From contig NC_089444.1 of NCBI RefSeq assembly GCF_026210795.1, positions 3,772,501-3,836,500 on the forward strand: a stretch of DNA of 64,000 nt, written 5' to 3'. The position numbers were made by a program, and so were the translations under genes. Positions 11,802 through 59,957 of this stretch are shown here, piece by piece (the first letter of the stretch is position 1; each line of letters begins with the position of its first letter). The stretch comes from Rhizophagus irregularis. Its lineage: Eukaryota; Glomeromycota; Glomeromycetes; Glomerales; Glomeraceae. The notes beneath the pieces were generated by a model. It had not been told where the DNA came from. It did no database searches and was given only the letters and a program-made list of their open reading frames with translations.

Positions 11802-14800
11802 CTAACATTTAGAGTTATCATTATATTTTGGAAGATCCTCTATAAAAGGATTAAGTAATCGAGATACATAAATAGCTTGTGGATGAATAGCTGCTTGGTA
11901 ATTTTTAATGGATGAAAGATTTGATTTTCTATATTTTTCTGCCTCATTAAATTGCACTTCAATTTCTTCATTTTCTACAATAAAAAAATCCACTCCAGAT
12001 GATTTATAAAATGATGTGATTAAATCATCTACCTCAATAATATTTGGTCTATTGTTTGGGTCTGAATCCCAACACTTTTTCATTAAACTAATATAACAGC
12101 TTGGCGTTTCTGGTTCATTTATTTCTGGCCTCACTTCTTTACAAATATCTAATGCAAGAAGATGATCATGTGCACGATTGTAAAAAGGTTGTCTTCCAGT
12201 TGCTACAAAATACATGATCATACCAAGGCTATAAATATCTGCTGCTTGAGTATAAAGCTCCCCCCTTAACACTTCAGGAGCCACATAGGGCATAACTCCA
12301 TAAATTTTTGTTTCATCTTTATTACCAACTTCTCCAAATAACCCCATGTCTGAAATTGATATATAATTACTAAAATTATATATCTTTTCACTTAAAAATA
12401 ATACATTTCCCGTATGAAAATCATGATGAATATGTTTTTTTTGATGAATTTCTTTAAGACCACAAATAATATTATCCAATACAGATAATTTATCTTGCCA
12501 ATTGAAATATTCATAATTTTTATTTATCCAATTATTAAAATTTCCTTTTTTTGCATATTTGAAAACTATAATATATTCCTTTGTATTTGGATTTTGAGAG
12601 ATTCCATATATACTGAGAATATTACTTCTTTTGTTTATTGGGAAATTTTTAATCTGTTTAGGTAAATAAAAAAATTATTATTTTATTATGGATTTTAAAT
12701 TTAAATTCATAAAAAAATTTTCTATAAAAAAATGATTATTAAAAAATTACATACCTCATTTAAAATTTTATTGTTAATATTTTGTGAATTATGTAAACAT
12801 TTTAAGGCAATTATTTTATTTGGATCCCTTTTATATATTTTATTATCTTTATCATATTCTAATAAACCATCTTTCCATTTTGCTGAATATACTGTAGCAA
12901 ATCCTCCTTTACCTATTTCCTTAATATTATTAAACTGATTGTATGGTATCCATTCAAATATTATATCATCATGATCATTTATTTTTAATTGCATTTCTTG
13001 AATAAAATCATCAATTATTTCATTTCCACTTAAACAATTTACTAAGTTTATGAAATTATTTTGAACAAAAATATAATCATACGTATTTGGATTTTGAGAT
13101 ATTCCATACAATACAAAAGATGCCCCATATTTTGTTGAATATTTCTTAGCCTAATAAATAATAAAAAGAAATTAATACACTTATTATTAAAAGACAGTAT
13201 AATAAATATTTGTAAGAAATTTTATACCTTATTTATTAGGAAATCAATAGAATTTTCTGAATTATGTAAGTATTTTAAAGCAACTTCTTTATTTGAATCT
13301 CTTGTGTATCCACCGTGATGATAATGCAATGGTCCATCTCTCCATACTGCTGAGTGTACTGTTACAAGACTATTTTTGCTTGTTTCTTTAATGTGATCAA
13401 ATTGATAGTATGGTATCCATTCAAATATTACATCCTCATAGTTATTTATTTTTAATTGCATCTCTTGAATGAAATCATCTATTTTTTTATTTCCACTTAC
13501 CCAGGTAAAATTTTTTTGGGCTAAAATATAATCATTTGTATCTGGATTTCGAGATATCCCATATATTTCAAGAAACTCTTCATTGAATTTACTTGCTGAA
13601 TATTTTTTTACCTAAAATATAAATCATATAATAATAGAAATAAGTGTATTTATAAGAAAAAAAATAACTTAAAAATTTTATACCTCATTTATTAGAGAAT
13701 CAATAGGATCTTGTGAACTATGAAAAAGCTTTAAAGCAACTTCTTCATCTAAATCTTCCATATCTTCACTATAATAATTTTCAAATTGTAATAGACCACC
13801 ATCCGTCCATACTGCTGAATATATTGTAATAGAATTATTTTTGCTAATTTCTTTAATTTTGCTAAATTGACCATAGGGTATCCATTTAAATAATAGATCA
13901 TTTTTGCTATTCAATTGCATTTCCTTAATGAAGCCATCAATTTTTTCATTTCCGCTTACCAATTTTAGAACTAAAATATAATCATTTGTATTTGAATCTT
14001 GAGAAATTCCATATATATCCCAATTTTCTCTGTCATGCATATTTGTTAAATATTTTCTAACCTATATAACAAAATGGTAAGTACTTATTAATAGTATTAA
14101 GATAATTTTTATAAAATTTCATAATTCATACCTTATTTATTATAGAATCAATGGATTGTTGTGATTTATTTAAACATTTTAAAACAACTTTTTTATTTGA
14201 ATCTCTTGAATAATATTCCTTTTTTACATATAATGGACCATCTCTCCATATTGCTGAATATACTGCCATAAGGCCATTTGTGCCTGTTTCTTTAATTTCA
14301 TTAAACTGATTATATGGTATCCATTCAAATACTCTATTATTTATGTTTTTTGAGTTTTCTGATTGCATTTCCCAAATAAAGTCATCAATTTTTTCATTTC
14401 CACTTATCCATGCTAGAACTAAAATATAATTATTTGTTTTTGGATCTTGAGATATTCCATATATATCATAAATTGCTATGTCAAATAATTTTGTTACATA
14501 TTCTTCAGCCTAAAAATAAAATAAAGGGATAAATATACTATAATAATAATATTAAGAATATTTATAAAATGTTATACCTTATTTATTAAGACGTCAACAA
14601 AATTTTGTGAGTTATGTAAATATTTTAAAGCAACTTTTTTATTTGAATCTCTTGTATAATTATTCCATTTTATATATAATGGTCCATCTCTCCATATTGC
14701 TGAATATATTGTTATAAAGCTATTTGTGTCTGATTCTTTAATTTCATTAAACTGATTGTATGGTATCCATTCAAGCACTATATTACTATTATTATTAATT

Positions 14801-17800
14801 TTTAATCGACTTTCTTGAATAAAATTATCAATTTTTTCGTTTCCACTGTCCCATACACAATTCCTTTGAACCAAAATATAATCTCCTGTATTAGGATTTT
14901 GGGATATTCCGTACAATACTTGTAATGCTTTATGGTTTTCTGGATATTTTTTAACCTAAATATAAATAAAAAAGATTTTAAATATATTAATTAAAAAAGT
15001 AGTTAAATATTTTAAGAAATTTCATACCTTATTTATTAAAGAATCTATAGATTTTTGTGAATTATGTAAACATTTTAATACAACTTTCTTATTTGAATCT
15101 CTTTCATAATATTTAGTTCTTATATCAATTTTCTTACATAATGGACCATCCTTCCATATTGCTGAATATACTGTTATAAGACCATTTGTACCTGTTTCCT
15201 TAATTCCATTAAACTGATTGTATGGTATCCATTCTAGAACTAAATCATCATGATAGTCATTAATTCTTAATTGGCTTTCTTGAATTAAATCATCAATTTT
15301 TTCATTTCCACTGTCCCATGTATAATTCATTTGAACCAAAATATAATCTCCGGTATCAGGACTTTGAGATATTCCGTACAATATTTGAAATGCTTTATAT
15401 TTTGTTGGATATTTTTTAGCCTAAATATAAATAAAGAAAGATTGTAAATGTACTAATTAAAAAAAAGTATCTAAAATTAAAGAAATTTCATACCTCATTT
15501 ATTAAAGAATCAATAGATTCTTGTGATTTATGTAAATATTTTAAAGCAACTTCTTTACCTGAATCTCTTATATATCTACCATAATCATAATCATCATAAT
15601 CACAATCATAATTACAATACAATGGACCATCCTTCCATATTGCTGAATATATTGTAATAAGGCCATTTGTACCTATTTCTTTAATTTCATTAAACTGATT
15701 ATATGGTATCCATTCAAGCACTACTATTTTTATACCATTATTATTAAAGCTACAATTAATTTTTAATTGTTCTTTTTGAATGAAATCATCAATTTTTTCA
15801 TTTCCACTAATCCAATTTGCTAAGTTTATAGAGTAATTTTGAACCAAAATATAATCACCAGTAACTGGATTTTGGGATATTCCATACAATGCTTGAAATG
15901 CTTTAAGAATTGTTGGATAGATTTTAACCTAAATATAAGTAAAAGAGATTGTAAATATACCAATTAAAAGAAAAAGTATCCAAATATTAAAGAAATTTCA
16001 TACCTCATTTATCAAATAATCAATAGATTCTTGTGATTTATGCAAATATTTTAAAGCAACTTCTTTATCTGAATCTCCTTCATATTCATCATCGCCATAA
16101 TACAATGGACTATCCTTCCATATTGCTGAATATACAGTTATAAGGCCATTTGTACCTGTTTCCTTAATTTCATTAAACTGGTTGTATGGTATCCATTCAA
16201 ACATACCTTCTATACTATCATCGCTAATATTAATTTTTAATTGCATTTCCTGAATAAAGTCATCAATTTTTTCATTTCCACTTGTCCATGTTAGAACTAA
16301 AATATAATCATTTGTTTTTGGGTTTTGAGATATTCCATATAATACTTGATATGTTTTACATTTTATCAGATTATTTAGATATTTTTTGGCCTAAATATAA
16401 ATCAATAAGTTGATAAATATACTAATAATAATAGTATTAAAGATATTTATAAAATGTTATACCTTATTTATAAAAAAGTCAACAGAATTTTGTGAATTAA
16501 GTAAATTTTGTAAAGCAATTTTTTTATTTGAATTTCTTGTATAATTACCATACCGGTTACTATGCAATGGACCATCCCTCCATATTGCTGAATATACTGT
16601 TATGGAACCATTTTTTCCTATTTCTTTGATTTCATTAAACTGATTATATGGTATCCATTCAAGTATTAAATTATTTCCATTATTGTCGATTTTTGATTGT
16701 ATTTCCTGAATAAAATCATCGATCTTTTCATTTCCATTGAACCAATTTGCTATATTTACTATGGGATCATTTTGAATTAAAATATAATCGTTTGTATCTG
16801 AATTTTGAGATATTCCATATAAAACAAACAATGCTTCATGTTTTATTGAATATTTTTTAGCCTAGATATGATATTAATTAAAAAATAGTAAATATACTAA
16901 ATCAAAAAAAGTATTTAAATATTTTAATATTTTTACCTTATTTAGTAAAAATTCAATGGAATCTTGTGAGTTATGTAAGCATATTAAAGCAACTTTTTTA
17001 TCTGAATCTCTTGCATAATTTTTATTCCATCCATCACTCCATATATCCCATGTATTAATTTCCTTATATAATGGACCATCTTTCCATATTGCTGAATATA
17101 CTGTTATAAAACCATTTGTGCCTATTACTTGAATTTCATTAAACTGATCGTATGGTATCCATTCAGGCACTACATTATAATAGTTATTAATTTTTAATTG
17201 CCTTTCTTGAATAAAATCATCAATTTTATCATTTCCACTGATCCAATTTAACATGTTTGTAGAATTATCTTGAACTAAAATATAATTTCCTGTATCTGGA
17301 TTTTGAGATATTCCATATAATACTTGAAATTCTTTATTATTTGTTGGATATTTTTTAGCCTAAATATTAATAAAAAGAGATTATAAATATACTAATTAAA
17401 AAAAGTATCCAAGTATTAAAGAAAATTTATACCTCATTTATTAAATAATCAATGGATTCTTGTGAATTATGTAAATATCTTAATGAAACTTCCTTATCTG
17501 ACCTTCTTGCATTATAATTACAACACAATGGACCATTCTTCCATATTGCTGAATACACTGTTATAAGACCATTTGTTTTTGTCTCTTTAATTTCAAAAAA
17601 CTGATTGTATGGTATCCATTCAGGCACTATATCATAATCGTTATTAATTTTTAATTGTTTTTCTTGAATAAATTCATCAACTTTTTCATTTCCACTGAAC
17701 CAATTTAACATGTTTATAGAATTATCTTGAACTAAAATATAATTTCCTGTATCTGGATTTTGAGAAATTCCATATAATACTTGAAATACTTTATGATTTG

Positions 17801-20583
17801 TTGGATATTTTTTAGCCTAAATATAAATAAAAGAGATTGTAAGTATACTAATTAAAAAAAGTATCCAAATATTAAAGAAAATTCATACTTCGTTTATTAA
17901 ATAATCAATGGAATTTTGTGAATTATGTAAACATTTTAATGCAACTTCCTTATCTGAACTTCTTGCATACATATCATAATTAAAACACAATGGACCATTC
18001 TTCCATATTGCTGAATACACTGTTATAAAACTATTTGTGTTTGTTTCTTTAATTTCAAAAAACTGATTGTATGGTATCCATTCAAATACTACATCACCAT
18101 CACAACCATCATGGCGGGAATTAATTTTTAATCGCTCTTTTTGAATAAAATCATCAATTTTTTCATTTCCACTTGTCCAGTTAAGAACAAAAATATAATC
18201 TCCAGTAACTGGATTTTGAGATATTCCATACAATACTATTTGTAATATTTCGTACGATGTTAAATGTAGTGCTTTATGATTTGTTGGATACTTTTTAGCC
18301 TAAATATAAATAATAAAAGTTATTGTAAATATACTAATTAAAAAGAAAAAGTATCAATATTTGAAGAAATTTATACCTCATTGATTATCCAATCAATGGA
18401 TTCTTGTGAATTATATAAATATTTTAAAGCAACTACTTTATTTGAATCTCTTTTATATCTAAAATACTGCAATGGACCGTCCTTCCATATTGCTGAATAT
18501 ACCGTTGTTATAAGGTCATTTTTACCTGTTTCTTTAATTTCATTAAACTGATTGTATGGTACCCATTCAAGCATTACACCATTAAAGTCAAATATTAATT
18601 GCCTTTCTCGAATGAAATCATTAATTTTTTCATTTTCACTATTCCATATATAATTATTTTGAACCAAAATATAATCTCCTGTAACTGGATTTTGTGATAT
18701 TCCATATAGTATTTGAAATGCTTCATGATTTGTTGGATATTTTTTAATCTAAATATAATAATATATATTATAAGCAAAACTAATTAAAAAAAAAAGTATT
18801 TAAATATTAAAGGAATTTCATACCTCATTTATTATTGAATTAATAGATTCTTGTGAGTTATGTAAACATTTTAAAGAAACTTCTCTATTTGAATCCCTTA
18901 GATAGTTTTCATCCGACCAATTATCTTCATCCGACCAATTCTTCTTTAATGGCCCATCTTTCCATATAGCTAAATATATTGTTATAAGGCCATTTGTGAC
19001 TGTTTCTTTAATTTCATTAAACTGATCATATGGTATCCACTCAAATACTAAATCATCTCTGTTATTGATTTTTAATTGCATTTCTTGAATGAAGTCATCA
19101 AATATTTCATTTCCACTGATCCAATTTGCCAATTTTATAGAATTATTTTGAACCAAAATATAATTTCCTGTATTTGGATTTTGAGAAATTCCATACAATA
19201 CTTGAAATGCTTCATTATTTGTTGAATATTTTTTAGCCTAAATATAAATAAAAAAGATTGTAAATATATTAGTTAAAAAAAAGTATTTAAATATTTAAAA
19301 AAATATTTGAAGGAATTTTATACCTCATCTATTAAAGTAACAATGGATTCTTGTGATTTATGTAAACATTTTAAAGCAACTTCTTTATTTGAATCTCTTG
19401 TATAATAATTCCATTCATTCTTTTTGTATAATGGACCATCCGTCCATATTGCTGAATACAATGTTATAAGGCTATTTTTGCATGTTTCTTTAATGTTATT
19501 AAACTGATTGTATGGTATCCATTTAAGCATAATATCATGGTCATTAATTTCTAATTGCCTTTCTTTGATGAAATCATCGATTTTTTCATTTCCACTTGTC
19601 CAGGTAAGAACCAAAATATAATCTCCTGTATCTGGATTTTGAGAAATTCCATACAATACTTGAAATGCTTCAAATGCTTCATGTTTTGTTGGATACTTTT
19701 TAGCCTAAATAAAAATGATTGTAAATATATCAATTAAAAAAAGTATCCAAATATTTAGGAAATTCCATACCTTATTTATTAAAGAATCAACAGATTCTTG
19801 TGATTTATGTAAGCATTTTAAAGCAACTTCTTTATTTGAGTCTCTTGTATAATAATTCCGTTTATCCTTTTTATGTAATGGACCATCCTTCCATATTGCT
19901 GAATATACTGTTATAGGACCATTTGTGCCTATTAATTTAATTTCATTAAACTGATTGTATGGTATCCATTCAAGCACTTCATCATTATAATTGTTAATTT
20001 TGAATTGTTTTTCTTGAATGAAATCATCAATTTTTTCATTTTTACTATCCCATATATAATTATTTTGAACCAATATATAATCTCCTGTATCTGGATTTTG
20101 AGAAATTCCATACAACGTTTGTAATGCTTCATGATTTATTGAATATTTTTTAGCCTAAATATAAATAAAAGAGATTGTAAATTTACTAGTTTTAAAAAAA
20201 ATTACTTAAATATTTTAAAAGTAATTTTATACCTCATTTATTATAGAATCAATAAATTTTTGTGAGTTATGTAAGCATTTTAAAGCAACTTTTTTATTTG
20301 AATCTCTTACATAACTTTTATTATCCCATGTATCAATTTTTTTATATAATGGACCATCCTTCCATTTTGCTGAATATACTGTTATAGGGCCATTTTTGCC
20401 TATCTCTTTGATTTCATTAAACTGATTGTATAGTATCCATTCAAATACTATTTCATTATCGTTATTGATTTTTAATTGCATTTTCCGGACAAAGTTATCA
20501 ATTTTTTCATTTCCACTTGTCCAACATATAAGATTATTTTCTATATATGTCAGAATGTTTGATGGATTTTTTTTAGAAGACAT
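11802..20583 (-). CDS. Giant kinase: 16 tandem degenerate N-lobes plus one complete kinase
   Basis: I predict 18 exons joined by 17 phase-0 GT-AG introns of 66-101 bp, giving about 2,499 codons with no in-frame stop. The start is the ATG at 20583. Exons 1-17 each encode a kinase N-lobe module. Exon 18 (11802-12653) carries the end of the N-lobe and the whole C-lobe: Y-G-I-S-Q-N-P (beta4), H-H-D-F-H-T-G-N (catalytic loop, HHD for HRD), S-D-M-G (DMG for DFG), V-A-P-E, and W-D-S-D-P-N-N-R-P. Only exon 17 has a proper glycine loop, G-K-G-G-F-A-T-V, and with the A-L-K lysine it completes a working-looking kinase. The 16 upstream modules have G-x-N-G-type loops and no C-lobe of their own. The family is tyrosine-kinase-like, as in other Glomeromycotina kinases. 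Alternatives are a chain of separate short genes or an expressed pseudogene. The unbroken frame and conserved splice sites favour a single gene. Confidence 0.75.
12755..20583 (-). repeat. Tandem array of 17 kinase N-lobe exons
   Basis: Exon bounds, 5' to 3' on the minus strand: 20233-20583, 19771-20154, 19324-19704, 18824-19237, 18377-18748, 17889-18299, 17433-17816, 16937-17359, 16463-16861, 16004-16390, 15494-15928, 15028-15420, 14578-14955, 14132-14509, 13684-14061, 13228-13611, 12755-13150. All but the first follow one plan: (A/V)-K-K-Y, L-Y-G-I-S-Q-N-P (beta4), D-Y-I-L-V (beta5), S-G-N-E-K-I-D-D-F-I-Q, E-W-I-P-Y-N-Q-F (before beta1), degenerate glycine loop, Y-S-A-I-W-K-D-G-P-L, V-A-L-K-C-L (beta3), then S-I-N-E at the exon end. 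The insert between P-L and R-D-S-N varies most in length. The introns are also alike, so the repeat unit is exon plus intron, about 430-510 bp. Confidence 0.85.
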
Positions 20584-22088
20584 TATATAAAAGCTCAAAA
20601 AAAAAAAAATTTATTAATAATATCATATTGTAACCATTATATATATGTAAATCATGAACACAAAAATCCAAAAAAGATAAGCTAATTTAAGTATTACATA
20701 TGATTAGTAATAATTTTTTAAAATGACTTGGATAATATATTAAAGCCACAATAATTAGTATTCTCAATACATTATATATATGTATATATATGTATAAATT
20801 TTTTATTAAACAATTTAATAACAAATATTTTATATTTGTTGCCGTAAGAACAAAAAAAAAATAAAATTAAATTAAATATAGTAGGTTGTTAATATATATA
20901 TATAAATAATGTATATAAAGCTTACTTTATAATATTATGATTGATTTTATAAAATTATCTAATTGAATTACATTTTGGAAACTTGAAAACAAATATAATT
21001 AAAGTTTAACTTAATATAATATATTCGAATTTTTTATCAATTTGGTTTATTTATCTTGTACATAACTTATTAAAATCTTTATAAAAATGCTAAAAACGAG
21101 CGTAAATATAGAAAAAATAGCATCATGATCGTTGATTTTATTTGTGTTGCGTGATCGACATGAATTAACGTAACTTTGAAAAAAAAAAAATCTCAGTTAA
21201 TTTTTGTAATATCTCTTGTTGCGTTTCAACAAAAAATATGTATAACAATTTTTTTATTTATTTCATTTATAATAAAATCATAAATCACCACATAATAGTA
21301 AATTCTTATTGACTTTGATGACTTTTGAATGACTTTTTGAAAAAAATTACGACATAGCATTCACGTGATTAAAAATAATCATATATATATATATAAATTG
21401 AGAAAATAAAAAAAGGATTTGATAGTAGAAATAGTATAAAAATAAGCAAAATAATTAATATATTTTTTTCATTGATAATTGATTTAGAAATTAAAATAAA
21501 AATAGAGTAGAAAATGCATGTCAACCAGTTTTTTTTTAATAATTCAGTTTTTAAAAATGTGTAAAAATTGTTCTATCTCAAAAATCACAACTTTAATAAT
21601 ATATGAAAGATATACACATATATATATATTGTAGTACAAATTATTAATACATACTTGTTACTTCTTATTCTTCTGCATCCGGAAATTATCTTAGACATAG
21701 TCCTGCGATGAGGGTGTAATCCAATGTAAGTTTTACACAAATTACGTAAATTTTCATAAGTAATTTACAAAACTTACACAAGCTTACGTATACTTACACA
21801 AATTTACGTAAGTTTACACCCCTGTCACATGGTTATGCTTAATTACTTTGAAAAACAAAAAACATTGAGTTGTTCATTCCTCTTATCATGTGGGTGGGCG
21901 TTAATCATTCTGTCTACTTTCTAAAATAAAAATATAAAAATAAAAAAAAAAATTCTTTCATAAAAATATTACATAACACAATTAACACATCTTTCAAAAA
22001 TCTTTACCAATCTATTTAATAAAATTGATCACCTATTAATTGCCAGTTTTGGATGTAAAATCAAAAATATTTGGTTCAATTGTAACGT
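20584..22088. other. Divergent intergenic region between kinase array and F-box gene
   Basis: AT-rich, no supported gene. It must hold the promoters of both the minus-strand kinase array and the plus-strand F-box gene. A small inverted-repeat element at 21712-21829 is annotated separately. Short (TA)n runs occur near 20780, 20895, 21380 and 21620. Confidence 0.5.
21712..21829. repeat. Short inverted-repeat element rich in TTACGTAA
   Basis: The left end (agggtgtaa...acacaaattacgtaa) and right end (ttacgtaagtttacacccct) are inverted relative to each other. The middle repeats acttacacaa and ttacgtaa, so the whole 118 bp could fold back. No target duplication was found. It may be a tiny MITE. 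Confidence 0.5.
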
Positions 22089-22214
22089 TCCATAGAACTG
22101 CGCCTAATTATTGAAACATGTTGCACACAATTAATCGACATGAATTGTGCGATAATATCACATATAAATTACCCAGTTCGGTATAATAATAAAAATTTGA
22201 TACTTCCCTCCAAT
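22089..22214 (+). promoter_or_regulatory. Conserved upstream segment of the F-box gene
   Basis: This segment immediately before the chosen F-box start is conserved in an orphan copy at 5203-5304 that lacks the coding sequence. That suggests promoter or 5' UTR sequence carried along in paralogue duplication. The open frame extends 25 codons upstream into it (from ATG 22140), but the orphan copy does not keep that frame. Confidence 0.45.
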
Positions 22215-23732
22215 ATGTCATGTTCAAAAATATTTTCAGGAGATTTACCTGAATTAACATATGAAGTTATAAAATATTTTCAGAATGATTATTCAACTTT
22301 ATATTCATGCATTTTAGTTAATAGATTATGGTGTCGTTTAACAATTCCATTATTATGGGAAAATCCATTTTCAATTTGTACTGAAAACAATGATTTTATT
22401 GAAATTTACTTATGTAATTTAAATAATGATTTTATAACAATATTAAATGAATATAAAATTTTTAATAATTCATTATCTACAAATACACTGTTCAATTATC
22501 CTAGTTTTTTAAAATATTTGAATACATATAAATTTATCACTTCTATTGATAAGTGGGTTGATTATGTTATTAGGAATTCAACATTCGAAATTAGTTATCT
22601 TTTTAAACATTTTGATTCAGTATCTAAGTTAATATTTAAAATTTTTATTGAAAATGAAATAAAATTACATACTCTTGAAATTGAGATCTCAGGTACTTAT
22701 TATAGCACATATTTTAATGAAATCCTTGAATTAATTTTACAAAATCAAAATTTTATTCACAATATTGGAAATTTGAAGCTTTATATCAAAAATTATGATG
22801 AAAATATGGATCATATATTACAAATAACTCATTTACATCAAAATCTTAAGAAAATTTTAATATGTAATAATTATACATCTTTATATCAATCATTATTATT
22901 ATCAAAAGATTATAATTGTTCAAATACCTTGAATACAATTACTTTCTATTATGTCGATTTCAGGAAAATAATCAATCTTGATAAAGTATTTGGACAATTA
23001 AATGTATTAGAAACTGTTCATATTATTAATTGTTCATCTTTGGAACAAATTATTAATTTATCAAAACCATTTAAATTGAAATCTTTAATTTTAATTAAAA
23101 TACAATTTGAATCATTGCAACAATTATTACTAAAATCTGGTGATTATTTGGAAAATTTCGGTTTGGGATTTAGTTATGGACTATCATCAAGACAAGTATT
23201 GTTAGGATTAATTATAAAGTATTGTAAGAATATCAAATTTCTTGATTTATGTGAAATATGTGAATTTAGATACCAGATTACTTATGAAATATTGGATTTA
23301 ATTGAAAATATTAAACAAGCTCTTAATCATCTTTCAATCAATATACTGGAAGATAATCATTCAACAAATGATAGTTCAATCATATTAAAGAATCTAGGAC
23401 AAGCCCTCCCCTCTAAATTGGAATACCTAAGTTTGGAACTTAAAGTTAAAGAAAGTGATTTTAGGGCATTCTTAGAAAATTCTCAAGATGTTTTTATTAA
23501 TAAATTATTAATAAAACTACAAATAGGTAGTGATGATATTTCACATTATATAAAGGAATATATTATGAAGGGAGAAAGAGTTAAATATTTGGCTATTATG
23601 GATATTAATAATAATAATCAATTGTCTGATTTTAGAGATGAAGTGGTGGAATTCAAGTTATATAATATTGGAGTTCGAAGTTATAATGATTTACTTATTA
23701 GCGTCGATAAATTTATTAAGAATATTGATTAG
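22215..23732 (+). CDS. F-box protein with leucine-rich C-terminal region
   Basis: Single exon of 505 residues from the ATG at 22215. I chose this start over the in-frame ATG at 22140 because M-S-C-S-K-I-F-S-G also begins the homologous gene at 35939. Residues 5-50 form an F-box: L-P-E-L-T-Y-E-V-I-K-Y-F, then S-C-I-L-V-N-R-L-W-C, I-P-L-L-W-E-N-P. Such domains bind Skp1 in SCF ubiquitin ligases. The rest is a leucine- and isoleucine-rich, irregular repeat region that would select the substrate. The target is unknown. Large F-box families without introns are typical of this fungal group. No lesion is seen. Confidence 0.85.
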   Translation: MSCSKIFSGDLPELTYEVIKYFQNDYSTLYSCILVNRLWCRLTIPLLWENPFSICTENNDFIEIYLCNLNNDFITILNEYKIFNNSLSTNTLFNYPSFLKYLNTYKFITSIDKWVDYVIRNSTFEISYLFKHFDSVSKLIFKIFIENEIKLHTLEIEISGTYYSTYFNEILELILQNQNFIHNIGNLKLYIKNYDENMDHILQITHLHQNLKKILICNNYTSLYQSLLLSKDYNCSNTLNTITFYYVDFRKIINLDKVFGQLNVLETVHIINCSSLEQIINLSKPFKLKSLILIKIQFESLQQLLLKSGDYLENFGLGFSYGLSSRQVLLGLIIKYCKNIKFLDLCEICEFRYQITYEILDLIENIKQALNHLSINILEDNHSTNDSSIILKNLGQALPSKLEYLSLELKVKESDFRAFLENSQDVFINKLLIKLQIGSDDISHYIKEYIMKGERVKYLAIMDINNNNQLSDFRDEVVEFKLYNIGVRSYNDLLISVDKFIKNID

Positions 23733-24940: not shown

Positions 24941-27824
24941 TTAAATATTAACTTCACATTCAAGACAACCAGTATTTAAGATTTCAGTAAATTTACGACT
25001 TGTATAATATGCTTGTGTATGTGATTGTATAATAGAAGCATTTGCTTGTTCTTGTACTAAAGTTTTGTTTGCTTTTATAAATTCAAACATATCATCTTTT
25101 AATTTATTATCTATATTAGATACTACAAATTTATAATTTCCATCCCTGTTTATTCTATAATATTCATTAATACATCTAATCCACTCAGATATAATAACTT
25201 CGAGCATTGTTATGGTTGGTCTATTGGAAGGATCTGAATCCCAACATTTTTTCATTAAATCTATATAACATTTTGGAGTATTTTCAACAATTTCAGGGCG
25301 TTTCCCTTCACAGACACTCAAAATAAGGTGATGATCATGTGCTACACGATTAAATGGAGGAATACCTGATGTAAATTCCCACATTATCATTGAAAAACTA
25401 TAAATATCACTTGCTGGTGTATAGGGTTTTTGTCTTAATGTTTCAGGTGCCATATAAGGTAAAACTCCATAAATTTCTTTAATTTTATTGTCAGAATCTT
25501 GTAAATTATTTATAGGTTTACATAATCCTAAATCAATAATAAATAACTCATTGTAATTATCTGATATTAAAATATTACCATCATGAAAATCACCATGAGT
25601 TAAATTTGATTCATGAATTACTTTGAGCCCTAATACAATTTTTTTCAATAATTGTAACTTTTCTTGCCATTTAAATTTAATTATATCAGATAAACATTTT
25701 CTTAAACTTCCTTTTTTTGCATAACTCATTACTATTATATAATTTAAATTATTTGGATTTTGGGTACATCCAAAAAATTGAATAAATTTTGAAAATGAAT
25801 TTTTCTGACAATTATAATGATATTTCCACTGTATAAATAATAAAACAAAATTAATTTTTGTAAAAGAAAAAAAAATTGCTAATAAATATAAATAATATAT
25901 ATACCTCATCCAGAAATTTACTATTTAAACTTGATGAATTATTAAGTGTTTTAAGAATAACCTCATAACCTAATTGTCTATTCCATTGTTGTTTGTCAAA
26001 ATTCCAACTAAAAATAGGACCATCTAACCAGATAGCTTTATGAATTTCACTAAATCCTCCTTTATCATAATAATTGATATTTGACAATTTATTATAAGGT
26101 ATCCATTCTAAAATTTCATAACTATTTTTGGCATTTAGTTGTGCTTCTTGAATAAATTTATCAATAAATTCATTTTTACTGGTCCACTTTGAAAAATCTT
26201 GTTGAAATTGTTTGACATTACATTGTTGACACCACTGGTAATCATAATATGGTTGCTCACATTCATTACATAAATTAAAATCTACTTCATTATTACTTTC
26301 TGTTGCTTTTTTACGCCAATAAAAGGCTTTTTCTAAATTCTTTTCTGTTCCTTCTCCATTTTCATAACAAAAGGCTAAATTATGCATTGAATTAGTGATA
26401 CCATTTTCTGCTGCTTTTTGATACCAATAAAAGGCTTTTTCTAAATTCTTTTCTGTTCCTTCTCCATTGTCATAACAAATGGCTAAATTATGCATTGAAT
26501 TAGTGATACCATTTTCTGCTGCTTTTTGATACCAATAAAAGGCTTTTTCTAAATTCTTTTCTGTTCCTTCTCCATTTTCATAACAAAAGGCTAAATTATG
26601 TATTGCTTCAACATCATTTTCTGCTGCTTTTTGATACCAATAAAAGGCTTTTTCTAAATTCTTTTCTGTTCCTTCTCCATTTTCATAACAAAAGGCTAAA
26701 TTATGTATTGCTTCAACATCATTTTCTGCTGCTTTTTGATACCAATAAAAGGCTTTTTCTAAATTCTTTTCTGTTCCTTCTCCATTGTCATAACAATTGG
26801 CTAAATTATGTATTGCTTCAACATCATTTTCTGCTGCTTTTTGATACCAATAAAAGGCTTTTTCTAAATTCTTTTCTGTTCCTTCTCCATTGTAATAACA
26901 ATTGGCTAAATTATGTATTGCTTCAACATCATTTTCTGCTGCTTTTTGATACCAATAAAAGGCTTTTTCTAAATTCTTTTCTGTTCCTTCTCCATTGTAA
27001 TAACAATTGGCTAAATTATGTATTGCTTCAACATCATTTTCTGCTGCTTTTTGATACCAATAAAAGGCTTTTTCTAAATTCTTTTCTGTTCCTTCTCCAT
27101 TTTCATAACAAAAGGCTAAATTATGCATTACCTCTTCATCACCATTTTCTGCTGCTTTTTGATACCAATAAAAGGCTTTTTCTAAATTCTTTTCTGTTCC
27201 TTCTCCATCGTCATAACAATTGGCTAAATTATGCATTGAATTAGTGAAACCATTTTCTGCTGCTTTTTGATACCAATAAAAGGCTTTTTCTAAATTCTTT
27301 TCTGTTCCTTCTCCATTGTCATAACAAAAGGCTAAATTATGCATTGAATTAGTGAAACCATTTTCTGCTGCTTTTTGATACCAATAAAAGGCTTTTTCTA
27401 AATTCTTTTCTGTTCCTTCTCCATTGTCATAACAAAAGGCTAAATTATGCATTGAATTAGTGAAACCATTTTCTGCTGCTTTTTGATACCAATAAAAGGC
27501 TTTTTCTAAATTCTTTTCTGTTCCTTCTCCATTGTCATAACAAATGGCTAAATTATGCATTGAATTAGTGAAACCATTTTCTGCTGCTTTTTGATACCAA
27601 TAAAAGGCTTTTTCTAAATTCTTTTCTGTTCCTTCCCCATTGTAATACCTTTTAGCTAAATTAAATATTGCTACTTTATTACCATTTTCTGCTGATTTTT
27701 CTAAAGAATTAATACATTCTTTACACCATAATTCTTCAGTAAAGGGTTTATTGCAATATAAACAATTTTTGGTGTTTACTATATCAGTAACTGAGATATT
27801 AGATTTACTAAATTTGGTTTCCAT
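24941..27824 (-). CDS. Sel1-repeat protein kinase fusion, 13 Sel1 repeats
   Basis: Two exons: 25905-27824 and 24941-25828, with a 76-bp phase-0 intron, about 935 residues. The order is: zinc-ribbon-like C21-x2-C24 and C34-x2-C37; thirteen Sel1 repeats of 35-36 residues, nearly all sharing G-E-G-T-E-K-N-L-E-K-A-F-Y-W-Y-Q-K-A-A-E-N; a second C-x2-C pair (C-N-E-C ... W-C-Q-Q-C); the linker K-W-T-S-K-N-E-F-I-D-K-F-I-Q; then the kinase. The glycine loop is Y-D-K-G-G-F-S-E-I, the beta3 lysine is V-I-L-K, the catalytic loop is H-G-D-F-H-D-G-N (HGD for HRD), DFG reads D-L-G, and M-A-P-E is intact. Sel1 repeats form alpha-alpha solenoids for protein binding, so this is probably a scaffolded cytosolic kinase. 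No membrane segment is seen. Confidence 0.88.
26300..27650 (-). repeat. Sel1-coding minisatellite, 105/108-bp units
   Basis: The Sel1 repeats are almost identical at the DNA level over a core of about 70 bp, including third codon positions. They fall into two length classes: 108 bp (ends G-F-T-N-S, G-I-T-N-S) and 105 bp (ends N-D-V-E-A). This points to very recent expansion or conversion. The long open frame on the opposite strand (26603-27244) is only a shadow of this repeat. Confidence 0.85.
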
Positions 27825-30337
27825 TTGTTTTTATTTTAGAAATTTATTTTACTAAAAAAATTATTATTTTTCTAGACAAATATTTTTTAGACGAAAATTT
27901 TTTCAATATTTCATGAATTAGGTTACTTAAAAGGAATACTTTAACTAAAAGTAGAAGTTACAATAAAAAAAATATTTTCGGGCCATAATTTTTCCGATGC
28001 ACTGATCTGCGTTGAGAAATTCCTTTAAAAATACATTGTGTACTGTGTAATGATAAAATTTGCCGTTCACGTGATTTAATTAAAAGGAAGTAATTACATG
28101 TTCTTACAAAAATGAATGGATAAAATACATTAAATTACTATTTAACATATTTATAAAAAAAAATTATTGTTAGTTTATAAAAATATCATTCGTTTATAAC
28201 GAATATATACTAAATTCCAATCTTATACTATTTTTCGTTATTTTCTCAACAACTGGTGACCAAGATTAAATTAAGTTTTTATTTTATAATATCAGATATA
28301 TAAAAAATTGAATTAATAATCATTAAAAATGGACTTATAATGTCTATTTCTATTTGTGTTTAAACACGGGTTTCCAAAAAAGAAAATTTTCTATTTAATG
28401 TTGGGCAGAATTAAATTTAGCGGGAAAACAGAAGAAAACAAAAATCTGCTAAATAAGTCAAAATTGACATTAAAAACCATCTGTAAATAACGGATGATCC
28501 GGATAACCATCCGAATGACGGATCACAACACTATATTAAGAAAATGAAAACTTCAATATTTATCTTTTTGTGTCTTGACATACCTCGCATTTCACATTTA
28601 GTTTCTCTGATGTATGACAATAACACCATCTGATCGCATAACTCTTTATTACCAAGCGAAAAGTAAATATAAAGCTGTACTATATAATATTAGATAGTTA
28701 TTATTGAGTGAGAGAAGAGAGATATCGTTTGAAGACTGAATAAATACTTTAAGAACAATTATATTTTATTATATTGACTTTAAAAATATAGTTGCTTCAA
28801 ATGAAGTATTTGAACAATTACTATAATTTAGAAACAGAAACGTTGACGAAAGTTTATGGCATATCAGGGAAAAGAAACCTTGTAATAAATACTTTATATT
28901 TCACAAGATAGAAAATATGAAGGTATCAAGAAATCTCGTTATGTGAACAATAATTTTACGAAACTACCGCGAAGAAAATTTATGTGATGAATAAACATGC
29001 TTTTTAACATATTTAGTGTTTGCAGATTTATTTAGTAATAACTATGTATCAGTTATTTAATAAAGATGTTGTTATTAGTTATGGAATTATTTATATAATG
29101 TACCTCTAAATTACTGTTTCAAATGAATATAAAAATATAAATCATCTTTACTATGTGAAATAATTGTGTATGCATCGCAAGATCATTGAGTAGAACGAAG
29201 TATTTTGTTGTACTAAATAATATAATTAATATAAATCCGAAAAATTATTTCTCTTGACAAAGTTTTTGTGCTTATATCATATTTTTTATCTTGACAAGCT
29301 AACGAAGTTCTCTCACTTAAGGTTTTCGATTTATAAAAATTAATTTGCAATTTTTTAATAATTTAATTCAGAAAAATATAGAGGATTTAAGAAAAAAAGT
29401 AAAGGACTAAAGGAATGGTAATTTTTTCTTACTTTCTTACTAGTTTAGATAGTTTGGATAGGATTTAATTAGTTGTTTGTTAGTATTTAGATTTATATTG
29501 GAAAATTTTAAAACAGTCATATCGGCATAAATTTAGCCAATGTAAATTACCTGCGGCAATAAATGATTTGAAGATCCGCGGGTAGAATTTAGCCGGACAA
29601 AGTTTATGAGGCGCGGAAGGCGCAGAATACCTATCACGTGGATGTACTGGTGCTATTGGTACAAGATTTTATTATCTGCAATAAGATTGAAGAAGATGTA
29701 ATATAAAATTGAAGATTCGTTACAGCTACGGACTATCTTTAGGATGAAGTAAAGTTGGTGCATTATGTCCGAGTTCACGTATTTTGGGCAAATATTGGGC
29801 GCAGAACTCGTTAAAAGTAGGACGTGTATACTTAATAGAAAAAATTTTAACATCGATTGAATTACAATGTATCTAGTCATTTTTATAAACAGTTATTGTA
29901 TTACTAGATAGATATTTTTGTTATATGTATTTGTTTATACAGGTGCAAATCGCTTCGAATGTACGAATGTATTTTCATGGTGGTGTTTAATAAATTTTTT
30001 TAATTATCACATATTAATTCTTTGTTATTATGCATTTATACTTTGTATTTATACAGGATGATTAACAAAGAAAATCTGCATGAACCTATCGGGCTGAACG
30101 ATAATTTCTTATATTGCTTAAGTGTTTAACTCCAAGAATTGGATCTGCATAATTAATTTAACTTTATAAGTATCTTTATTTAAAATATGGTCATTTGATC
30201 AATCAACAAGTATCAGATGACATTACAAAAATGTCGTACCACTTTGATCTACAATAGCATTATTTAAAGAATTGTTAACGTTAGACTCCAACATAATTTT
30301 TTTTTTAAAAAAAAAAATTTAAACAAGAAAACCAACA
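27825..30337. other. Divergent intergenic region, 2.5 kb
   Basis: AT-rich, holding the promoters of the Sel1-kinase gene (minus) and the next Sel1 gene (plus). A short palindromic stretch of ATCCG/CGGAT occurs at about 28490-28530. A GC-richer patch at 29545-29640 shows no recognisable feature. The 75-codon minus frame at 29653-29880 is not supported as a gene. Confidence 0.5.
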
Positions 30338-31983
30338 ATGTCGTCCAACAAAATTATAGATATCAATATTTCTATAGATGATGAAAATTATTTAAAGAAT
30401 CTTATAATAAAATTTCGTAATAACATTATTAAATCATATGACTTTGAAAATTTTGAAAAGATTTCGACTAATTGGATAAAAACTTCCCTTGAAAGTAATG
30501 ATAAAGATCCTGAAATATTTCTCAAAATAATGGAAAATCATAAAGAAAATAAATCTTGGTTTACAAGTTTAATAGGATATTTTTATCAATTTGGTATTGG
30601 TTGTAATCTTAATAGGGAAAAGGCGTTGGATTGTTATTTAATTGCTATCAATAATAATATTAATTATGATTCTTTAGATATAATAAATAAGAATCAATTA
30701 CCTTTGATTGTAAAAAATAATGGTGTATTCAGTTTGTTAAGAAATAGTAACACGATTATTGGAAAATATTTATTATCATTATTTTATTATAAAGATTTTA
30801 TTAATAATATTTTATCTGTTACTGATTTTGAACAAAATAAATTAGTGTTTCTTCTAAAATTAGACGGAAATAGTGAATTAGAAGTACAATTTAATTTAAC
30901 AATTTGTAGAAAAGATGGAAATGTTGATTATAAAAAAGTTTTTGAATTACTTTTAAGTTTGGCTGAAAAAAAAAATTTAGATGCAAAATATAATTTGGCA
31001 ATTTGTTATATGGATGGAATAGGCACACAAAAAGATAAAGAAAAAGCATTTGACTTGTTTTTAGAATCTGCTATTCAACCATATAAATCTACTGTTAGAA
31101 GTAGGTTGAGGCGTATATTTAAAAATGATTTAGAATCTGCGATATCAAATAATTCAATAGCACAATATAGGGTAGCACAATATAGGGTAGGATGTCATTT
31201 TCAATCTGGAAAAGGAGCGAAAAAAAATATAATAAGGTCATTTAAATGGTATTTAAAATCAGCTAAAAATGGATATGTAAAGAGTCAAATTTGTGTGGAT
31301 CTTGTTATGAATGTGGTAAAGGAACGGACAAGAATGAAATAGAAGCGTTTAAATGGTATTTAAAATCAGCAGAAAAAGATGTAAAGAGTCAAAGTTACAT
31401 AGGATATTGTTATCTAAAAGGTTATGGAATAGATAAGAATGAAACAAAAGCATTTAAATGGTATTTAAAATCAGCTAAAAATGGAGATGCAATGAGTCAA
31501 AATAATGTGGGATATTGTTATGACCATGGGATAGGAATAGATAAGGATGAAACAAAAGCATTTGAATGGTATACAAAATCAGCTATTAAAGGATGTAATG
31601 ATGGACAATATAATTTAGGATATTGCTATGAAAATGGCAAAGGAACTGACAAGAATGAAATAAAAGCATTTGAATGGTACACAAAAGCAGCTGAATATAA
31701 TAATACTGTAGCACAAAATAATTTAGGAGATTGTTACAAATATGGTAAAGGGACAGATAAGGATGAGAAAAAAGCATTTGAGTGGTATTTAATATCGGCT
31801 GAACAAGGGTATAAAATGGGACAAAATAATGTGGGATATTGTTATAAACATGGTTGTGGAACAGGAAAAAACCAGGATATTGCAACTCAATGGTTCCAAA
31901 GAGCAGCCAAAAGTGCTGTAGCGCAAAATAATTTGCAAACATGCAAATATGGTGTTGAAATCGCTATAAAGGATTTATTGTAG
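30338..31983 (+). pseudogene. Sel1-repeat protein gene with a one-base frameshift
   Basis: The ATG at 30338 opens a frame of 334 codons that ends at 31342. The Sel1 repeats continue in another frame (31291-31983) without losing a repeat, so one base appears to be missing near 31294-31299. The N-terminal 190 residues are not recognisable Sel1. From about residue 205 on, Sel1 units follow (G-I-G-T-Q-K-D-K-E-K-A-F and several G-K-G-T-D-K-N-E-x-K-A-F-x-W-Y-x-K-S-A). A direct repeat I-A-Q-Y-R-V-A-Q-Y-R-V (near 31160) is a 15-bp tandem duplication. No kinase domain is present. It is either a recent pseudogene or a single assembly error, since all other parts are clean. Confidence 0.75.
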
Positions 31984-34359: not shown

Positions 34360-35939
34360 CTAGTAAGTTTCTTTTATATAATTATAAACTCCCATGATTG
34401 AATCATTATAATTTTGCAATTTGATGTTATATGACCCAAATTCCTCCACTTCATCTTTCAAATAAAACAAATCCTTATTATGAAATAATGCATTTTTATG
34501 AAAAGAATTCTTAATAGCCAAATACCTGACTCTTTTCTTTTTCATAATATATTTTTTTATATAGGGTAAAATATCATCACCATCCTCATTATTTATTAAC
34601 AATTTCTTAATAATAGTATTTTTAGAACTTTCTAAAAATAATTTAAAATTACCTGCTTTAATGTGAAGAGTTAAACTTAAATATTCTAATTTAGAAGGAA
34701 GAATTTGTCCTAAATTTTGCAATATGATTGAACTATATTTGTTATAATCAATAATATTTCTTAATACTACTGGTTCAAAGATATTAATAGTAAGATAATT
34801 AAGATTTTGTTTAATATTTTCAATTAAATTTAATGTTGGATAAATAATTTGATTATTATAATCATGTAAATCAAGTAATTTGATATTTTTACAATATTTT
34901 ATAATTGATTTAATTAATTTTTTTGATATTGGATCATGATTAGATCTAAATCCGCAACCAAGATTCTCTAAATAAGCACCATATTTTTGTAATAATAATT
35001 GTAATGATTGATCAATTTGTGATCTATCATTTATAAATAAAGATTTTAATTTAAATGGTCTAGTTAAATTAATAATTTGTTGAATAAAACTAGTATTTAT
35101 AGGATAACAATGAAAAATATGAACAGATTCCAAAACATTTAATTGTTCAAATAACTTATCTAAAGGTTCTAATTGTTCAAATACTTTAAATACTATTACA
35201 TTATATTCCATCAATTTTAAGGGCATAATTAATTTGGATAACAATAATGGTTGATATGAAGGAAAATTGGTGTGATCTAATACAATTTTTTTAAGATTTC
35301 GATGTAAATTAATTATTTGCGATATGCGATCTTTAGTTAACTTGTCCTCATTAGGATTATTGTTGATATATAAGAAACCAGGGGTTTTACCATTATATAG
35401 TTTTAAAAATTTAATATTGTGAATGAAGTTCGTATTTTGTAAAATTAACTCAAGAATACCATTATTAAAATAAGAAAGATAACCAAGATGAGTTAACTCA
35501 ATTTCAAGAGTATGTAAATTTACGTCATTTTCAATAAATATTTTAAATAATGATATAATAACTAATTTTTTATTTAAATTTAAATATGCTTTAGCCCACC
35601 TTCCAACAGAAGAAATAAAGTCCTGTGTATTCAAATATTTTATAAAACTAGGGTAGTTGAAAAGTGTATTAGAAGGTAATAATTTATCAATGTCGTATTT
35701 ATTTAATTCAGTTTTTAGATCATCATTTAAATTTAAATTATATAAGTAAATTTCAATGAAGTTATAATTTCCGGTAGAAATTGAGAATGGTTTTCCCATA
35801 ATAATGGAATCGCTAAACGACACCATAATCTATTAACCAAAATACATGAGTGTAAAGTTGAAAAATCATTCTGAAAATATTTTATAATTTCATATATTAA
35901 TTCAGGTAATTCTCCTGAAAATATTTTTGAACATGACAT
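34360..35939 (-). pseudogene. F-box/LRR-like gene with a one-base deletion
   Basis: A paralogue of the F-box gene at 22215. The ATG at 35939 starts M-S-C-S-K-I-F-S-G-E-L-P-E-L and the F-box runs to I-P-L-L-W-E-N. A single missing base at about 35788-35795 then moves the rest of the protein into another frame, which stays open to the stop at 34360 (about 480 residues). The intact paralogue shows where the base is missing. Only this one lesion is visible, so it is a very young pseudogene or an assembly error. The C-terminal leucine-rich region is otherwise normal. Confidence 0.8.
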
Positions 35940-42582: not shown

Positions 42583-44411
42583 TTAATCATTAAAATTTTT
42601 TATACTAATTTCACCTTTATCAAAATCTATAAAACAAACAAACAAATAAATAAAATAACACATTATAAAATAAAAAAAAGTAAATATCTTACCGAATTCA
42701 TCAAATTGGATATCCAAACATTCTGTAACTTTTAAAAAATAAATGTAATATTAAAAAAATATGAATATCATCAATTATGTTAATTATCAATAAATATAAT
42801 TACTTACGAAATGCTGATTGAATAGCACCAATTAAAAAAACAAATAATTAGTAATGTAATATATCTTTTTTTGTTATTAAAGTAAATTAGATTACCTGAA
42901 TTTGCTGGTTCTGGAAGATTTTTGAAATCTAAAAGTCTACTAGTATAGATTGCTTGTGGATGTTTTGGAATATTATTATATCTTTTTTCACTTGTTCTGT
43001 TTAATTTGATTTTATCATTATATTCATTTACTTGATCACTATCTTCATACTCATCATTATTCCATTCATTTAATGTTTGATATAATTCTTTAGCAGTTGG
43101 TCTATTTATTTCTTCAGCATCCCAACATTTAGTAATCAAATCTGCAAGTAATTTTGGTGTATACTTAAAAATACTTGGTTTAAGTCCTTCACATATTTTA
43201 ATAGCTAAACCATTATCATGAGCTATATTATTATAAGGAGTTTCTTCAGATATATATTCATTCATCATAATTCCAAATGAATAAATATCAGATGCTTTTG
43301 TATATTGATATCCACGTAAAACTTCTGGTGCCATATAAGGTAATACTCCATAAACACTTTTTTGATTAACTGATTGCTTTATATTTGCTGGTTGACACAT
43401 TCCAAAATCACTTATATATGGTAAATCACCAATATACAATATATTGCCTGAATGAAAATCTTTATGAACCTTTCCAGAATTATGAATATCTAGAAGTCCA
43501 CTTGCAATTTGTCGTAATTTATCGATTTTTGAATAATAGCCTAATTCTTTATTTATATAGTTATTTCTAAAATTTCCACCTTCACAGTATTGTAAAACCA
43601 TCATATATTCGTTAGTTTCTGGATCTTGAGTTATTCCATAACATTGAACAATATCATTAAGATAAATCTGAAGATGAGATTTAATCTAATTATCATCAAA
43701 AAGGAAAATTGTATTAATAAATAAATGCAAATAACAATCCTTATATATAAGATAAAGTAAGATTAAATTACCTCATTTAAAAAATCTAAACTTATATCAA
43801 GGGAATTATTCAACCTTTTTAATGCATATTTATAAATAAATCTATACCACTTTTGATTTTCAATATCCCAATATTTAATATGTCCTTCAGGCCATTCTGC
43901 TGAATAAACCTTACTAAAACCACCTTCTGCAATATAAGTGACATTTTGAAATTTTTCAAAAGGTATCCATTCAAGACATTTTTTATAATGTACAGCATTA
44001 AGTTGTGATTGTTGTATAAATTCATCAACTTCTTTGTTTCCACTAGACCAATTTTTAAAGTTATCCTTAAATCTTTTAGCATTACAAGGTTGACACCAAT
44101 CTTCTCCTGTGCCAGGTTCATTACATTCTCCACATATTCCATATACTTGTTTTCTTTTTTCTAAATCTTCCATATAAACTATTTTATCATCTGCCTCTTC
44201 TGATGATTCAGTAGTTGAATCAATAGTAGAAATTGTAACATGTCTCTTTTAAAAATAAATGATTAAAAAACTATTATCATCCAAATTATAAAATTCAATA
44301 ATGTAATGTTATTAATGATAAAATAAATTATTTTACCTGATATTTGTCTTCATCAACATATTTCCATAAATTTTTCTTATTTTCTGTAGGATTCATTTTT
44401 GATATTTCCAT
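42583..44411 (-). CDS. Tyrosine-kinase-like protein kinase with CxxC zinc motif
   Basis: Predicted exons: 44337-44411, 43772-44245, 42896-43685, 42809-42814, 42693-42728 and 42583-42626, about 474 residues. The first two and the kinase exon join in phase 0. The N-terminus is acidic, followed by C-G-E-C ... W-C-Q-P-C, the linker N-W-S-S-G-N-K-E-V-D-E-F-I-Q, glycine loop I-A-E-G-G-F-S-K-V-Y-S-A, beta3 lysine A-L-K-R-L, catalytic loop H-K-D-F-H-S-G-N, intact D-F-G, M-A-P-E and W-D-A-E-E-I-N-R-P. It ends in a polar tail (A-I-Y-T-S-R-L-L-D-F). The catalytic set looks complete except HRD, which is HKD. The last three exons, including a 6-base exon, rest on splice consensus only. If they are wrong the protein ends by read-through shortly after 42896. 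Confidence 0.8.
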
Positions 44412-53790: not shown

Positions 53791-53803
53791 TCACTCCCCG
53801 CTC
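53791..53803 (-). other. Polypurine tract candidate
   Basis: On the minus strand GAGCGGGGAGTGA directly abuts the LTR start TGTTA. It is the expected position and composition for the plus-strand primer of reverse transcription. It overlaps the end of the third ORF. Confidence 0.65.
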
Positions 53804-54141
53804 AAGTTTTCAACTCCGTTGAAAATTTGAAGAGCCTTAGTTACCAATTTCTGAAATTCGGTTTGGCTAACCTCTCGGAGTAATGTGGGCGTTATTCGGA
53901 TCGTGCGCATGATTTGTTCGACTCCCAGATATTCGAATAAATAGAACATTCGAGTGACAATAGTTCGGTAATGTTCCGTTAATTGTTGTCGATAATAGTT
54001 TCGTTGCTTATTATCTTTAGTTTGTCGTTCCAACAATTGTCCTAGATAAAACAAATTAACTAACCATAGGACTCTGTCACCAACTCGCTTAGATCTTTCT
54101 GTGGCTTCATTCATTAATCGGAACTTTTCCTCGAAGTTCAT
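53791..54141 (-). CDS. Extra 3' ORF of the gypsy element, unknown function
   Basis: 116 codons from ATG at 54141. The TGA stop is the last three bases before the LTR, so the frame runs through the polypurine tract. The protein is basic and helical, rich in Arg, Glu and Leu (M-N-F-E-E-K-F-R-L-M-N-E-A, L-T-E-H-Y-R-T-I-V-T-R-M-F). It has no signal peptide or membrane segment, so an envelope-like role is unlikely. It follows the integrase after about 280 bp of AT-rich DNA. GC content matches gag and pol rather than the flanks, which argues that it is a true element gene. I do not recognise it. Confidence 0.6.
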   Translation of the reverse strand: MNFEEKFRLMNEATERSKRVGDRVLWLVNLFYLGQLLERQTKDNKQRNYYRQQLTEHYRTIVTRMFYLFEYLGVEQIMRTIRITPTLLREVSQTEFQKLVTKALQIFNGVENLSGE

Positions 54142-54424
54142 ATTATCTTCATATGGTTTTGGATAAGGAACAACATATTCTGGTTGAGTTTCTCATAAAT
54201 CTTTCAATATACACTGATATGGAGTCATTTTTTTCTTTAATAATTTTAACAATCCTCAAAAAAAAAAAAAATCTTCAATATATATATAAAAAAAAATTAT
54301 CAAATAAAAAAAATTTCACAAATCTTCATCAACCGGTACATCAATTATCTATTGATTGTCTAAAATAGGAGATGATCGTCATATGCACATTCCCCAACAA
54401 TTTAAAAATTCCTTACACAAATTT

Positions 54425-59910: not shown

Positions 59911-59939
59911 ACACTTTGGGTCAACAGGGATGTTAAGGA

Positions 59940-59957
59940 TTCTGGCAGAAGGCACCA
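59940..59957 (-). other. tRNA primer-binding site
   Basis: Two bases after the 5' LTR end, the minus strand reads TGGTGCCTTCTGCCAGAA, which begins with the TGG complementary to a tRNA CCA end. The matching tRNA 3' end would be ...GGCACCA. The tRNA species cannot be named from the sequence alone. Confidence 0.75.

Follow-up and report, generated by a model that had tools for sequence, protein, structure and literature searches.

The 64,000-nucleotide stretch of Rhizophagus irregularis DNA analysed here (the window; C16:3772501-3836500 of a 146.7 Mb genome in 32 contigs) contains an 18-exon gene on the minus strand whose product carries 17 protein kinase N-lobes and a single C-lobe. The spliced model runs from the ATG at 20583 to the last base of the stop codon at 11802 and comprises 2,499 codons plus the stop. 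It shows 16 N-lobe-only copies, in which the glycine loop that grips ATP is not canonical, and one apparently complete kinase that keeps its catalytic residues, all within a single open frame that can be spliced. We propose, with a probability of about one half, that the N-lobe chain is a multivalent platform, a scaffold for or regulator of the terminal kinase, which is probably active, and that the chain grew by the copying of phase-0 exons. A broader proposal, which we put forward more tentatively, is that the N-lobe could be a free-standing repeat domain, of which up to about 24 are chained into a multivalent interaction platform before one live kinase, in a class of proteins that appeared early in the history of the arbuscular mycorrhizal fungi (Glomerales and Diversisporales) or spread among them.

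Gene structure and module anatomy

In the spliced model, all 17 introns are GT-AG, phase 0 and 66-101 bp long, every splice site is intact, and no stop or frameshift interrupts the 2,499 codons. The coordinates and counts given for this gene in an earlier note on the same DNA (18 exons, about 2,499 open codons, GT-AG phase-0 introns) proved exact on this model. The model also bears out the note's sixteen extra N-lobes ahead of one terminal kinase and its confinement of the C-lobe to exon 18, the only exon with HHD..N, DMG and APE. The note had further assigned one N-lobe module to each of 17 exons. The 17 lobes stand; the one-exon-one-lobe correspondence does not, since the introns cut helix αC and the exons are permuted halves. 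An internal exon runs from mid-αC through β4 and β5 to a linker helix (SGNEKIDDFIQ), and then through β1, β2, a variable insert, β3 and the first half of αC. The 17 lobes therefore straddle the splice junctions, and exon 18 completes the last. The exons of the spliced model are as follows.

20233..20583, minus, exon 1: start codon, N-terminal segment, linker helix and β1-β3/αC-start of lobe 1 (identical in the NCBI protein P0121)
19771..20154, minus, exon 2: end of lobe 1, start of lobe 2
19324..19704, minus, exon 3: end of lobe 2, start of lobe 3
18824..19237, minus, exon 4: end of lobe 3, start of lobe 4
18377..18748, minus, exon 5: end of lobe 4, start of lobe 5
17889..18299, minus, exon 6: end of lobe 5, start of lobe 6
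17433..17816, minus, exon 7: end of lobe 6, start of lobe 7
16937..17359, minus, exon 8: end of lobe 7, start of lobe 8
16463..16861, minus, exon 9: end of lobe 8, start of lobe 9
16004..16390, minus, exon 10: end of lobe 9, start of lobe 10
15494..15928, minus, exon 11: end of lobe 10, start of lobe 11
15028..15420, minus, exon 12: end of lobe 11, start of lobe 12
14578..14955, minus, exon 13: end of lobe 12, start of lobe 13
14132..14509, minus, exon 14: end of lobe 13, start of lobe 14
13684..14061, minus, exon 15: end of lobe 14, start of lobe 15
13228..13611, minus, exon 16: end of lobe 15, start of lobe 16
12755..13150, minus, exon 17: end of lobe 16, start of lobe 17 with the sole canonical glycine loop, GKGGFATV (also from the lobe alignment)
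11802..12653, minus, exon 18: end of lobe 17, sole C-lobe (HHD..N, DMG, APE) and C-terminal tail (Pfam PF07714, E 2.8e-30)

Local alignment of the window lobes (m01-m17) gave pairwise identities of 44-78%, with a mean of 59.5%. The closest pair was m06/m07 (78%), and the nearest relative of most lobes lies elsewhere in the array. The array units have β1-β5 and αC in N-lobe topology. Successive lobes start every 125-142 residues, which leaves no room for a C-lobe, so that these units hold one of the two lobes of a protein kinase. Structure prediction, a kind of check suggested in the earlier note, returned the array modules of relatives as N-lobes, and the JAK2 JH2 N-lobe was among the tied best structural matches of an array-only model. 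A profile search with the array alignment (A2) against PDB sequences gave no match at E 0.01. Three N-lobe exons were scanned with Pfam: exon 17 gave a sub-threshold kinase match (E 0.069), and exons 1 and 10 gave none. For one of the window's ordinary single-lobe kinases, too, the N-lobe exon escaped Pfam, so the silence of Pfam on the array exons is not evidence of divergence. It does imply that Pfam-based kinase counts would miss the array architecture.

The NCBI entry for the gene, OCT59_008509 (P0121), is an uncharacterized R. irregularis protein of 2,360 aa. P0121 is identical to the spliced model through exons 1-16, and then lacks 85 residues of exon 17 (β1-β3 of the terminal, only canonical lobe) and 54 residues of exon 18 (part of the C-lobe). 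The stretches removed, 255 bp and 162 bp respectively, have GT-AG ends and are both divisible by three. A second R. irregularis protein, P0122, contains both of these stretches and lacks others. As each of the two models misses different stretches, the differences look like annotation noise. The lobes of P0122 match m01-m17 in order at 90-100% identity, with m13 split over two rows. This conserved order, together with the position of the window inside a chromosome-sized contig (C16, 4,919,323 bp), speaks against the collapse or expansion in assembly that the earlier note had warned of. Judged from sequence, the feature is a genuine coding gene and belongs to a Glomeromycotina family that has expanded.

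Terminal kinase, selection and family

The N-lobe of the terminal unit (exon 17) has a canonical glycine loop (GKGGFATVYSA), the β3 lysine (IALK) and the αC glutamate (LNE), and its C-lobe (exon 18) has HHDFHTGN, SDMG and VAPE. It deviates at the Arg of HRD, which is His (HHD), and at the Phe of DFG, which is Met (DMG). The retention of the Lys, the Glu, the catalytic Asp and Asn, the metal-binding Asp and the APE motif suggests that the terminal kinase is probably active. By eye on the alignment, the loop reads GKGGFA in lobe 17 and GKNGPI, GTNGLI, KTNGLI and similar in lobes 1-16. The window gene thus has the arrangement by which we propose to recognise the family, namely at least two free N-lobes with a non-canonical glycine loop followed by one kinase with a canonical loop.

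The same contrast was found in relatives. Database searches listed 181 proteins (P0001-P0181), made up of 120 of the 620 matches of a first search and 61 new ones among the 87 matches of a second. Loops were compared in 108 of them, each with a C-lobe motif and at least three lobes; any lobe gapped in the six loop columns was set aside. The loop pattern [GA]x[GS][GS][FYA] was present in 90 of 101 last lobes compared to 8 of 765 preceding lobes. With gaps counted as absence, the β3 lysine was present in 100/101 last and 630/765 preceding lobes, and the αC glutamate in 99/101 and 516/765. A degenerate array ahead of a canonical terminal unit was also seen in the Acaulospora proteins P0183, P0185, P0187 and P0197 and, by eye, in Gigaspora rosea P0179.

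The array exons are under purifying selection. A codon model that takes base bias into account gave ω of 0.335 for window array exons 2-16 (2ΔlnL, twice the log-likelihood difference, of 106 versus ω = 1), 0.383 for 129 array exons from the examined loci and the window (2ΔlnL 509), and 0.236 for 12 terminal exons (2ΔlnL 112). The rejection of ω = 1 for exons 2-16 agrees with the earlier note, which had read the intact frames as a sign of selection. In simulations of 60 neutral substitutions in one 129-codon exon, a mean of 4.7 stops arose and only 1 of 200 runs stayed free of stops, so the open frame is not a matter of chance. The tightest array segments were β4-β5 (0.10-0.12), the linker helix (0.18-0.23) and the glycine-loop region (0.21-0.29); the αC-β4 loop stood at 0.34-0.38, and the loosest were the β2-β3 insert (0.44-0.70) and the linker after β5 (0.55-0.93). 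For the window exons alone, the insert (2ΔlnL 3.7) and the linker after β5 (2.0) were inseparable from ω = 1. Fits for the six-codon segment loopA were stuck at their start values, and the terminal exons there gave ω of 1.8 with a likelihood worse than that of ω = 1. No segment was convincingly above ω = 1 under the codon model.

A counting method gave higher values in two places, the αC-β4 loop (1.14 in the window, 1.27 in all exons) and the β2-β3 insert (1.42 and 0.91). Neutral simulations under the same base composition spanned 0.76-1.09 for this estimate, and we therefore do not claim diversifying selection in these loops, a signal that the codon model did not uphold either.

Arrays of this kind are numerous in the genome. 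A composite-module search gave at least 150 scored matches in at least 40 clusters on 11 contigs, 25 clusters having two or more matches; 150 of 4,484 candidates were scored, which makes these counts lower bounds. Twenty-eight of the clusters lie on C16, one contig of the 32, and 25 of these 28 between 2.39 and 3.92 Mb. Nineteen loci with at least two modules were found in the DNA examined, where the 17 lobes of the window are the longest array, most other loci being cut short. At the module boundaries of these loci and the window, counted where the profile match of both neighbouring exons reached both ends, 109/109 introns were GT-AG, phase 0 and 62-86 bp. Nine larger gaps (198-1042 bp) separate neighbouring modules of other genome arrays, none of them in the window, and may mark missing, broken or undetected modules.

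Among the matches listed, 178 of the 181 relatives have at least two free N-lobes (the next lobe starting within 185 residues). Their lobe number ranges from 3 to 25, the longest being P0123 with 25, and a C-lobe motif is present in the models of 104 and absent from those of 74. The sources of the listed matches include R. irregularis, R. clarus, Glomus cerebriforme and Gigaspora rosea, and a further search, started with a G. rosea protein, extended them to Acaulospora morrowiae, in which the partial protein P0182 has 10 units by pattern. Beyond R. irregularis, arrays thus occur in R. clarus, Glomus, Gigaspora and Acaulospora. R. irregularis belongs to the Glomerales, and G. rosea and A. morrowiae to the Diversisporales. 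The ten lobes of P0027 comprise one nearest to m10 (64%), three nearest to m11 (71-78%), and then m12-m17 in order (73-93%).

Three further features were noted by eye. Each Acaulospora and Gigaspora unit also has a cysteine knuckle. The array lobes of A. morrowiae proteins such as P0182 seem to have no glycine loop at all. In P0179, a long N-terminal part with hydrophobic stretches precedes three degenerate lobes and the kinase, which suggests a membrane receptor version of the layout.

Origin of the array and candidate functions

The intron position in αC is shared by two ordinary single-lobe kinases of the window, whose introns there are likewise GT-AG and phase 0 (25829-25904 and 43686-43771). 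The repeat exon consequently looks like the head of a second exon (αC-end to β5) joined to an N-lobe exon (linker to αC-start). A fusion between the β5 end of a lobe and the linker helix preceding the next would have given rise to it. The exon and its intron, about 460 bp together, would then have been duplicated by unequal exchange, lengthening the chain with the frame unbroken, since a repeat exon flanked by two phase-0 introns keeps the frame when it is duplicated. Introns between modules are 80% alike compared to 65% when shuffled, which points to exon plus intron as the copied unit. From these features we strongly infer that the chain grew by copying of a phase-0 repeat exon and that this exon arose by fusion.

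Both ordinary kinases lie on the minus strand. The gene at 24941-27830 combines 13 matches to the Sel1 repeat with what by eye is a cysteine knuckle and with the single-lobe kinase that has the first of these introns, and likely pictures the ancestral kinase layout. The gene at 42804-44248 encodes the second single-lobe kinase, also with a cysteine knuckle by eye.

In a 48-row tree, built without an outgroup from 34 of the 166 array lobes (five proteins) and with window lobe 17 in place of the terminal lobe of P0121, 13 of 14 terminal lobes grouped apart from the array lobes and across species, and P0136 fell among the array lobes. A larger FastTree of 182 rows (14 terminal, 166 array, 2 outgroup), in which the terminal lobe of P0121 is damaged by the annotated deletion, brought no more than 9 terminal lobes into one group, which also contained one other row. 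For 114 of the 166 array lobes, the nearest row in this tree came from the same array. Terminal lobes grouped across species and array lobes nearest their own array suggest that the arrays are old in kind and have been homogenised or re-amplified in each lineage.

Kinase N-lobes serve as docking surfaces in RAF and EGFR-type dimers, which by analogy suggests that the N-lobe chain gathers kinases or substrates. In the platform that we favour, the array lobes would act as non-catalytic protein-binding repeats. Their N-lobe surfaces would gather partners, which may include further kinases of this expanded family, and the chain would thereby localise or switch the one terminal kinase.

Several observations weigh against this proposal. 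The removal of the exon 17 and exon 18 stretches in the NCBI model would disable the kinase if it were real. The array exons are less constrained than the terminal exons (ω of 0.34-0.38 versus 0.24). In the wider set from the Acaulospora search, the last unit found by pattern is non-canonical in a number of proteins, many of them partial or with a terminal lobe missed by the pattern. When 12 terminal lobes were tested as one clade, p-AU was 0.097 and P0136 was the outlier; a single clade for all terminal lobes was set aside on these grounds. The array-only model has a mean pLDDT of 61 and a pTM of 0.39, and its structural matches mostly cover its second lobe.

The looser constraint on array exons would also be expected of a ratchet without adaptive function, in which symmetric exons multiply, the copies are tolerated, and selection merely purges those that misfold or break the frame of the terminal kinase. 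The phase-0 introns on both sides of the unit, the spread from 3 to 25 lobes among the 178 listed relatives, and the nine gaps where a module is perhaps missing, broken or undetected are consistent with such a process. However, β4-β5 and the non-canonical glycine-loop region are strongly constrained, and the contrast between degenerate array and canonical terminal unit is repeated in the 108 proteins and the four Acaulospora proteins. We regard the ratchet as rather unlikely.

The chain could instead be an integrated decoy or sensor, in which foreign effectors, or kinases recognised as non-self, would take the degenerate lobes as bait and the terminal kinase would signal the hit. The large lineage-specific family, with its many module numbers and its concentration on C16, would suit such a role, as would the relatedness of lobes within an array and the counting estimates near or above 1 in the αC-β4 loop and the β2-β3 insert. 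The same idea has been put forward for plant tandem kinases, in the part of PMC6170490 covered here. Against it, neutral simulations alone place the counting estimate anywhere between 0.76 and 1.09, P0122 retains all 17 lobes in order, and the codon model shows no convincing diversifying selection in any segment, including both loops. The decoy version is for this last reason less supported, and we consider it unlikely.

That the modules are remnants of tandem kinases that are not translated as one protein is very improbable: the models of the window locus and P0122 do differ over several stretches, and 74 of the 178 relatives have no C-lobe motif in their model, but the long frame and intact splice sites, the purifying selection and the prediction of array proteins in several assemblies and species all speak against it.

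The window holds further features. On the minus strand at 53791-59961, adjoining and overlapping open reading frames resemble, by eye, the gag and pol genes of Gypsy-type retrotransposons. Two long open reading frames that look related by eye (22086-23732, plus; 34360-35829, minus), had no Pfam match at E 0.001 and are perhaps F-box/LRR-like. Two overlapping Sel1-type open reading frames in different frames (30323-31983, plus; the first one scanned with Pfam) may belong to a single gene that has an intron or a frameshift. Searches of the window for Rfam families, at the gathering threshold, and for tRNAs gave no match.

Known kinase architectures and meaning of the array

In Janus kinases, the JH2 pseudokinase precedes and regulates the JH1 kinase. 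The likeness to the window gene lies in a pseudokinase domain ahead of a kinase; the difference is that JH2 has both lobes and occurs once. The KIND domain, as far as the sources covered describe it, is half of a kinase fold used as a binding module, as we propose here. KIND, however, is a kinase C-lobe without an N-lobe, whereas the array modules align with N-lobes and stand in long arrays. Plant tandem kinase-pseudokinases (TKPs), such as Yr15/WTK1, resemble the window gene in placing a degenerate kinase-derived domain in tandem with a kinase. TKPs join whole two-lobed kinase and pseudokinase domains. In contrast, only N-lobes repeat in the array family, up to 24 before one kinase among the matches listed, and the window gene, with its single C-lobe, does not pair a two-lobed kinase with a two-lobed pseudokinase. 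Glycine-loop and catalytic positions are among those lost in TKPs, according to the part of the source covered (PMC6170490).

The expansion of kinase genes in R. irregularis has been published (PMC6123716, PMC8647823, PMC4219462), and the terminal kinase (PF07714) fits the expanded tyrosine-kinase-like families of this fungus. In the parts covered, these papers count kinase-domain genes and mention no free N-lobe repeats. The part covered of a paper on fungal cell death (PMC12881547) mentions neither Glomeromycota nor Rhizophagus. The listings from searches of an open-access library, which lacks most subscription papers and all preprints, gave no account of N-lobe arrays. Within that scope the earlier note's view of the architecture as undescribed holds, with the correction that the window gene is one of a large Glomeromycotina family and is already an uncharacterized protein at NCBI.

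N-lobe-array kinases look like an overlooked kind of signalling protein. Binding modules made of half a kinase are known from the C-lobe (KIND), and in animals and plants full pseudokinases regulate kinases; long chains of N-lobes would be a third use of the dead kinase fold. If this is true, half of a catalytic fold became a repeat protein, used comparably to ankyrin or Sel1 arrays. The contrast between degenerate array and canonical terminal unit makes direct experiments possible. The family is large, and the fungi that carry it colonise the majority of land plants and are little understood in their signalling.

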